A program made the position numbers and the translations under genes. A DNA stretch of 64,000 nt from Bryobacteraceae bacterium (GTDB taxonomy: Bacteria; Acidobacteriota; Terriglobia; Bryobacterales; Bryobacteraceae): NCBI GenBank assembly GCA_019748195.1, contig JAIEPW010000013.1, forward strand, positions 1 through 64,000, written 5' to 3'. The notes beneath the pieces are model-generated. The model was not told the DNA's origin. It saw only the letters and a list, made by a program, of their open reading frames with translations, and did not search any database. Positions within the stretch are counted from its first letter, which is position 1. The number at the start of each line of letters is the position of its first letter. Below, piece by piece: positions 61,552 to 63,395 of the stretch.

Positions 61552-62058
61552 ATGGAACGTCCTGGAGCGACTACTCTGCGCGGCAACGGAATGACGTTGA
61601 TCGGCCCGGAGCTGAAAGTTGGAGACAAGGCGCCGGATTTTACGGCGGTAGACGACAAGCTGCAGCCGGTCAGTCTGAGCGCGACCGGCAATGGCGTGCG
61701 AATTTTCAGCGTCATCCCCTCGCTCGACACGCCCGTTTGCGACATGCAAACCAAGCGGTTCAACGACGAAGCCGGCAAGCTGCCCAACGTCTCGATTTAC
61801 ACCATCAGCATGGACCTGCCGTTCGCGCAGAAGCGCTGGTGCGACAGTTTCGGCGTCGATCATGTCAAGATGATTTCGGATCACCGCAACGCCAGCTTCG
61901 GGGAGAACTACGGAACCCTGATCAAGGAATTGCGGATCGAGAGCCGGGCGATCTTTGTCGTGGATGGAAGCAACGTGATCCGCCACGCGGAGTACGTCAA
62001 GGAAGTAGGCGATCATCCGGATTACGATGCGGCGCTGAATGCCGCCAAATCGCTGTAA
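61552..62058 (+). CDS. tpx: Tpx, thiol peroxidase (atypical 2-Cys peroxiredoxin)
   Basis: A 168-residue peroxiredoxin that reduces lipid hydroperoxides and H2O2. The peroxidatic Cys63 is in SLDTPVCDMQT and the resolving Cys97 in KRWCDSFG, with VGDKAPDF at 23-30. GAGGAGG is 13 nt before the ATG, a long spacing; an in-frame ATT 12 nt upstream (61540) is an unusual alternative start, ATG being preferred. The gene diverges from a HAD hydrolase. Confidence 0.92.
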   Translation: MERPGATTLRGNGMTLIGPELKVGDKAPDFTAVDDKLQPVSLSATGNGVRIFSVIPSLDTPVCDMQTKRFNDEAGKLPNVSIYTISMDLPFAQKRWCDSFGVDHVKMISDHRNASFGENYGTLIKELRIESRAIFVVDGSNVIRHAEYVKEVGDHPDYDAALNAAKSL

Positions 62059-62099: not shown

Positions 62100-62459
62100 G
62101 TGAAACGGGCGATCCCGTTGGCGATGGTTCTGTTGACGGCCGGGTGCGGGCCGGTTGCGCGGTGGGTGTTCTCCGGAGCCGAGAACACCTGTATCGTTCT
62201 CGTGGGGTCCACCACACGTGAAATCGACGGCGTGAGGCGGATCATCGGCTCCGTGCGCAACGATTGCGATCGCCGGTTTCTGACGGTCAACATCGTGTTC
62301 CGCCTCTACCGGTCCACGGCGCGGGGCGCCGCCGGGATGCCGGAGCCGGCGGCGGTCGCCGCGGTCCGCGACCTTGAGCCTGGACAAGTGAAGGAGTTCG
62401 AAACGCTTCCCGTGGGCCGTGATGCGGCCTTCCGGCTGGAGAGAATCAGCGGCTTCTAG
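62100..62459 (+). CDS. Predicted lipoprotein, FxLyD-like, 119 aa
   Basis: A 119-residue protein with a lipobox (LLTAGC, Cys16), so it should be lipid-anchored. The region REIDGVRRIIGSVRNDCDRRFLTVNIVFRLY (about 41-70, shown in part as IIGSVRNDC) resembles an FxLyD fold, ending in GQVKEFETLPVG. The start is GTG at 62100. It follows tpx by 41 nt and precedes the ankyrin gene by 9 nt, so co-transcription is likely. Function unknown. Confidence 0.75.
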   Translation: MKRAIPLAMVLLTAGCGPVARWVFSGAENTCIVLVGSTTREIDGVRRIIGSVRNDCDRRFLTVNIVFRLYRSTARGAAGMPEPAAVAAVRDLEPGQVKEFETLPVGRDAAFRLERISGF

Positions 62460-62468
62460 AAGTGGCTT

Positions 62469-62942
62469 ATGACCGAGGAAGAGCGCTGCGCCGAGGCCCG
62501 CAAGTTCGAGGGGATTCATAACGCCTTCCGGCTCGGCGATCTCGCCGCATTGCGCGCCGCCCTGGACGAACCGTCGATTGTGCCGAACGGGCGAATGCCG
62601 TGCGCCTTCGATCCTTGCCTCGTCTACGCGGTTTATCACAGCCCGCTTGCCTTCATTCGGGAGCTACTGGAGATCGGCGCCGACCCCAATCCTCCGGTTG
62701 ATGACGGCTTCCCACCGCTGCTCGCAGCTCTGAGTTGCGGCCGCGACGCGCCGGGCGCCAATCGTCGCGACGACATCGACGAGATCGTGCGCATGCTGCT
62801 CGCATCGGGAGCGGACCCGAATCAGCGGGGGATCAACGATTACACGCCGCTTCACATGGCGGTGGCCGAGGGCAACGCGCTGGCGGTCCAGGTGCTGCTG
62901 GATGCCGGGGCGGACCCGGAACTGCGGACGCGGATCGACTAA
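62469..62942 (+). CDS. Ankyrin-repeat protein, N-terminal part of an interrupted ankyrin-FKBP gene
   Basis: A 157-residue frame with ankyrin repeats: LGDLAALRAALDEP, SPLAFIRELLEIGADPN, IVRMLLASGADPN and TPLHMAVAEGNALAVQVLLDAGADP. A TAA at 62940-62942 ends it directly after RTRID, in the middle of a repeat: the next in-frame residues CETPLEMACAAN continue the ankyrin pattern. The frame then runs on to an FKBP-like domain (62961-63395). Changing one base (TAA to GAA or another sense codon) would restore one 308-residue protein. It may be a pseudogene, a sequencing error, or two coupled genes. Confidence 0.75.
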   Translation: MTEEERCAEARKFEGIHNAFRLGDLAALRAALDEPSIVPNGRMPCAFDPCLVYAVYHSPLAFIRELLEIGADPNPPVDDGFPPLLAALSCGRDAPGANRRDDIDEIVRMLLASGADPNQRGINDYTPLHMAVAEGNALAVQVLLDAGADPELRTRID

Positions 62943-62960
62943 TGCGAAACGCCGCTCGAG

Positions 62961-63395
62961 ATGGCTTGCGCCGCGAATCTCGAAGTCATCGCCGGGATTC
63001 TCGAACGAAGAGGTGCGCCGCTCCGGCAGCGCTTGCGATCCGGTGTCAGCCTTCTGCTCGACATTCCCGGCGCGGGCGAATTCGTCCGCCGCCAGCATTC
63101 CTACGCGATTCGCCTCCGGATGCAATTGCAGAACAGAACTCCGGTCCGCTGGCCCCAGCCCTGGGGACCCGTGGGAGCTTCGCGGCTGGGCGACGACGGC
63201 GGGACGCTCTACACCGAGATCCTGCTGCATCGCGGACGGCTGGTCAACGGCCTCTTCTACGGGATCGATGGAATGCGCGTGGGCGGGACCCGCCGCCTGG
63301 AGTTAGCTCCACACATGGCGTATGGCGATCGCGGAGTGCCCGGCGTAATTCCTCCGGGAGCGGCGTTGTTCGCCGAAATTACGATCTTGAGCTGA
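62961..63395 (+). CDS. FKBP-type peptidyl-prolyl isomerase domain, C-terminal part of the interrupted gene
   Basis: A 144-residue frame, the in-frame continuation after the TAA at 62940. It begins inside an ankyrin repeat and has no Shine-Dalgarno, which argues against independent translation. The C-terminal half (FYGIDGMRVGGTRRLELAPHMAYGDRG...VIPPGAALFAEI, shown in part as GMRVGGTRR and VIPPGAAL) is a clear FKBP-fold half with the AYG and IPP motifs. A restart at ATG 62961, 18 nt after the stop, is possible but unproven. Confidence 0.6.
   Translation: MACAANLEVIAGILERRGAPLRQRLRSGVSLLLDIPGAGEFVRRQHSYAIRLRMQLQNRTPVRWPQPWGPVGASRLGDDGGTLYTEILLHRGRLVNGLFYGIDGMRVGGTRRLELAPHMAYGDRGVPGVIPPGAALFAEITILS

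Follow-up and report, generated by a model that had tools for sequence, protein, structure and literature searches.

On the forward strand of the window, the whole 64,000-nucleotide stretch of Bryobacteraceae DNA analysed here, a reading frame opens at an ATG at 62469, meets a TAA at 62940-62942, and beyond it stays open, with no shift of register, as far as a TGA at 63393-63395. The TAA, at codon 158, is the sole stop inside the frame 62469-63395, and the FKBP half beyond it contains neither a second stop nor a frameshift. A preliminary description of this DNA had reported an ankyrin-FKBP gene cut by one in-frame TAA; its coordinates and its residue number, 158, are correct. The 157 codons before the stop (62469-62939) encode ankyrin repeats that match the Pfam families Ank, Ank_2, and Ank_4 and are homologous to residues 2-157 of two intact relatives discussed below. 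Past the stop come the remainder of the last ankyrin repeat and a linker (62943-63035), which can be aligned with the corresponding stretch of the two intact relatives and with the C termini of four relatives that have ankyrin repeats only. These are followed by an FKBP-like domain with its own TGA (63036-63395; Pfam FKBP_C), which has 64% identity to each intact relative over 118 columns. The first in-frame ATG past the stop, a possible re-initiation site, is at 62961-62963, and the next candidate start, a TTG at 63033, immediately precedes the FKBP-like domain. A DNA search placed the locus as a single copy at G000:C138 and found no second copy of the ankyrin-FKBP gene in its own genome.

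Upstream on the same strand, a small ORF (62100-62459) ends 9 bases before the ankyrin ATG and could share a transcript with it. This ORF is weakly FxLYD-like (NCBIfam FxLYD, 20.6 bits against a cut-off of 23), and is itself preceded by a thiol peroxidase gene that ends at 62058. No counterpart of either neighbor, or of the downstream ORF, was detected on the contigs of 13.2 kb and 4.2 kb that carry the intact relatives.

The domains that the preliminary description had placed on either side of the stop, in one frame, were both recovered by profile searches. The ankyrin part scored 58.2 bits with PF00023 (cut-off 21.1; Pfam Ank E value 5.7e-16) and 53.4 bits with PF12796 (cut-off 27.3). The FKBP half alone scored 40.2 bits with FKBP_C (PF00254; cut-off 21.1, E value 4.3e-10), and the intact relatives scored 38.8 and 43.1 bits. 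The FKBP_C match of the window protein spans only profile positions 38-93 of 94, and the first third of the domain (profile positions 1-37) has no Pfam match in this half. The resemblance to FKBP-type peptidyl-prolyl isomerases lies in the later part of the domain, with its YG...G.IPP..A.L motif; the best sequence match is PDB 4dz3, and solved FKBPs are similar by sequence over that later part only. When aligned to solved FKBPs, the window half has Leu instead of Trp and Ala instead of Phe at two positions that we take to be the FKBP12 drug-pocket residues Trp59 and Phe99 (FKBP12 numbering). Judged by its sequence, the half appears to have neither the whole domain nor the canonical pocket residues (Trp59 and Phe99) of an active isomerase, and it may be a protein binder that lacks strong isomerase activity. 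Predicting the structure of this half from its sequence alone gave no usable model (mean pLDDT 45.1).

With the read-through protein as query, carrying X at the stop, we obtained matches in 83 of 257 genomes of the order at E ≤ 1e-9. Two of the matched proteins cover nearly the whole length without a stop: one in G443 (C152:10574-11491), with 68% identity over residues 2-307 of 308, and one in G618 (C288:1251-2165), with 65% identity over residues 3-307. Both have the same domains in the same order as the window protein and align with it without an internal gap, but unlike the window gene they have sense codons at position 158. The preliminary description had named residue 158 of the orthologues as the place to look, and had held that orthologues encoded as two separate genes would speak against an interrupted gene; the G443 and G618 genes are single and uninterrupted. 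A nonsense-mutated pseudogene should have just such relatives, open throughout and with a sense codon in place of the stop. Because both full-length relatives are uninterrupted and have sense codons at 158, the ankyrin-FKBP fusion is genuine, and among the genomes seen the window genome alone has the stop.

The other matches listed cover the ankyrin part or extend slightly beyond it, the exceptions being those in G622 and G511, which cover the FKBP part only. A profile of the three proteins, run against the same 257 genomes at E ≤ 1e-14, recovered the three and one partial relative, in G643. The fusion is common to three genera of one family. Since full-length ankyrin-FKBP proteins occur in 3 of the 257 genomes of the order, the window's own included, the architecture is unusual, as had been suggested, but the chaperone-like character ascribed to it is only putative, given the unmatched profile positions 1-37 and the Leu and Ala at the pocket positions. 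No further fused gene was found in the family of G707 (12 genomes, of which only G707 itself matched), in the family of G066 (one genome, no match), or with the ankyrin part as query in five genomes of the phylum. Among the top-ranked abstracts of a literature search we found no bacterial ankyrin-FKBP protein, and the sole mention of FKBP among the passages of PMC3482391 that were retrieved concerns a different, FKBP-like immunity protein.

Each half also occurs on its own. When 399 genomes drawn from the class were searched with the profile of the fusion protein (E ≤ 1e-20), six matched: the window genome, G618, G707, G668, G722, and G666, the last four over the ankyrin half only. The ankyrin-only proteins of these four (G707:C510 and those of G668, G722, and G666) have 45-66% identity to the window ankyrin part over the aligned residues. 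Unlike the fusion, they end after the last repeat, having extended 29, 25, 23, and 24 residues, respectively, past the position aligned with the stop. A tblastn search with the G443 FKBP half, over 3.1-3.6 kb around each of the four genes, found no FKBP half nearby. In G643, an ankyrin-family relative whose N-terminal end is cut by a contig end (L052:970-1788, G643:C498) continues for about 170 further residues without a Pfam match, and is the same ankyrin module with a different C-terminal partner. From the sequences of the ankyrin-only relatives and the G643 C-terminal region, the module seems to occur both alone and with different partners. Found by itself and, in G643, before a different C-terminal region, the same ankyrin family has the look of a binding module that is portable and can exchange its partners.

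At E ≤ 1e-12, a profile of the FKBP half had matches in 34 of 396 genomes sampled from the phylum. End-to-end matches were confined to the window and G066, which are themselves rows of the profile, and the others matched from position 39 or later. With the FKBP half itself as query, 100 of the 396 genomes had matches at E ≤ 1e-6, and all but the locus itself and G066 (residues 31-147) began at residue 83 or later. The G066 copy (L028) can be read as a 128-residue ORF. It and the FKBP-like ORF of G622 (L058) align nearly end to end with the G443 FKBP half, at 31% and 38% identity, respectively. Unlike the fusion, neither has ankyrin repeats, and no ankyrin match was found in the 3.4 kb around the G066 ORF or the 3.2 kb around that of G622. 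The G622 ORF (L058:1348-1662, G622:C359), from the same family as the window, matches nearly the whole Pfam domain. Among 41 genomes (the window's own and 40 relatives, none of the same genus), the FKBP half had matches in four, its own included; the locus itself apart, these covered query residues 96-149 only. The ankyrin part had matches in 40 of the same 41, which shows merely that ankyrin repeats are common. A scan of a wider collection of genome contigs gave one partial FKBP match, and on plasmids there was no place that covered 80% of either half.

The position of the stop sets it apart from a natural gene end. It coincides with none of the ends found in the ankyrin-only and G643 relatives, and because the four ankyrin-only relatives extend 23-29 residues further, it must cut inside the last repeat. 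The repeat continues through the stop, as the preliminary description had it. Two adjacent ordinary genes are ruled out, since the last ankyrin repeat spans the stop and both halves form a single gene in the full-length relatives.

The substitutions on the two sides of the stop were compared among the three full-length proteins. In the FKBP domain (residues 190-306) the window protein has 22 amino acid changes of its own, against 6 in G443 and 7 in G618, while in the ankyrin part (residues 3-157) the unique changes number 17, 13, and 18, respectively. The corresponding Fisher test (17:31 vs 22:13) gave p = 0.016, uncorrected and one of four tests. The other three gave p = 0.096 for the whole part past the stop, 0.068 for amino acid against synonymous changes in the FKBP half, and 0.53 for the same comparison in the ankyrin half. 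Unique third-position synonymous differences in the FKBP half (17 in the window, 16 in G443, and 10 in G618) show no window excess. In LG+G4 trees the window branch is 0.44 for the FKBP half, against 0.13 and 0.10 for the relatives, and 0.26 for the ankyrin half, against 0.20 and 0.29. Relative-rate tests on the FKBP half, expressed as the window's own changes to those of the relative, were not significant (9:2 and 8:3 with G622 as the outgroup, 7:6 and 7:4 with G066; smallest p 0.065). If the excess in the FKBP half is real, it favors a loss of constraint past the stop; such a pattern would be expected of a genuine loss that is no longer entirely new, and not of a wrong base call.

The NG86 dN for FKBP residues 190-306 is 0.28 against a dS of 1.17 or more, and 29 of the 34 columns common to G443, G618, and the distant G066 are kept in the window. 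Long-standing neutrality is impossible given the lack of indels, the low dN/dS, and the retention of these shared columns. That no second stop is present carries little weight, since the chance of finding none, given that many changes, is about 0.4-0.5. As the FKBP half is mostly conserved, an old loss is excluded unless that half continues to be produced.

The best explanation, to which we give a probability of roughly 0.7, is that a real and fairly recent nonsense mutation has interrupted a rare ankyrin-FKBP fusion gene. The gene could instead be intact in the organism, with the TAA a wrong base in the draft assembly, which is in 154 contigs; a single codon separates the locus from an open frame that is otherwise intact. 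We consider this unlikely, as the genome is listed as 99.67% complete and 1.5% contaminated, and a base-calling error would not cause an excess of window-specific changes in the FKBP half, although that signal is weak. A scan of the window for other genes interrupted by single stops found 12 that pass a loose threshold, of which 11 are followed by a start codon no more than 27 codons downstream. The scan misses the stop at 62940 itself because codon bias is weak past it (a score of 0.04 in the 50 codons after the stop, compared with 0.35 in the 50 before), and so it provides no control for this stop.

The conservation of the FKBP half could also mean that the one fusion has been split into two adjacent functional products, with re-initiation at the ATG at 62961 (or the TTG at 63033) making the whole FKBP-like domain. 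The ATG is in frame, begins 21 bases downstream of the point where the stop begins, and could yield a 144-residue FKBP protein; the TTG lies just before the domain; and stand-alone members of both halves occur elsewhere. The low dN/dS and the 29 retained columns would fit a recent fission that is undoing a domain fusion, in which translation from an internal start continues to supply an FKBP-like half that selection maintains. However, the cut is off the domain border and costs the last repeat its end, a segment retained in ankyrin-only relatives, and by eye there is no clear Shine-Dalgarno sequence before the ATG. The methionine at 62961 is invariant in the three aligned proteins and is therefore ordinary repeat sequence; since the intact relatives share it, re-initiation is not the reason it arose. 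A functional split seems quite improbable to us, and a fission of this kind equally doubtful. Programmed read-through or recoding of the TAA, giving a regulated amount of full-length protein, would likewise account for a frame that is open and largely conserved past the stop. Neither full-length relative has a stop at codon 158, however, and there is no sign of a recoding structure, since the predicted folding of the 100 RNA bases that follow the stop is no stronger than that of shuffled sequences (z = 0.65). We regard such recoding as very improbable.

With the recent nonsense mutation as the preferred reading, we infer that the stop is in the organism's DNA. Translation would then terminate at codon 158, giving an ankyrin fragment of 157 residues whose last repeat is incomplete at its end, while the FKBP half would for the most part go untranslated. 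Ankyrin repeats are protein-binding. The ankyrin module of the intact relatives probably engages a partner protein and may act as an adaptor, presenting that partner to the FKBP-like domain or being steadied by the domain. The window gene belongs to an uncommon, though not isolated, ankyrin-FKBP family, and its interruption by a nonsense codon is ordinary as an event. Its architecture is of modest use. An uncommon kind of two-domain protein, in which an ankyrin module is joined to a divergent FKBP-like domain, is defined by the intact relatives. The case matters mostly for annotation, where gene prediction would report a pair of unrelated genes at this locus and lose the link between them.

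The ankyrin part (62469-62939) is also matched, at 42 bits, by the PADLOC model PDC-M72A, which represents a candidate defense protein. A weak "Ankyrin" model of the defense library falls within the ankyrin part as well. The PDC-M72A match probably reflects just the ankyrin repeats.
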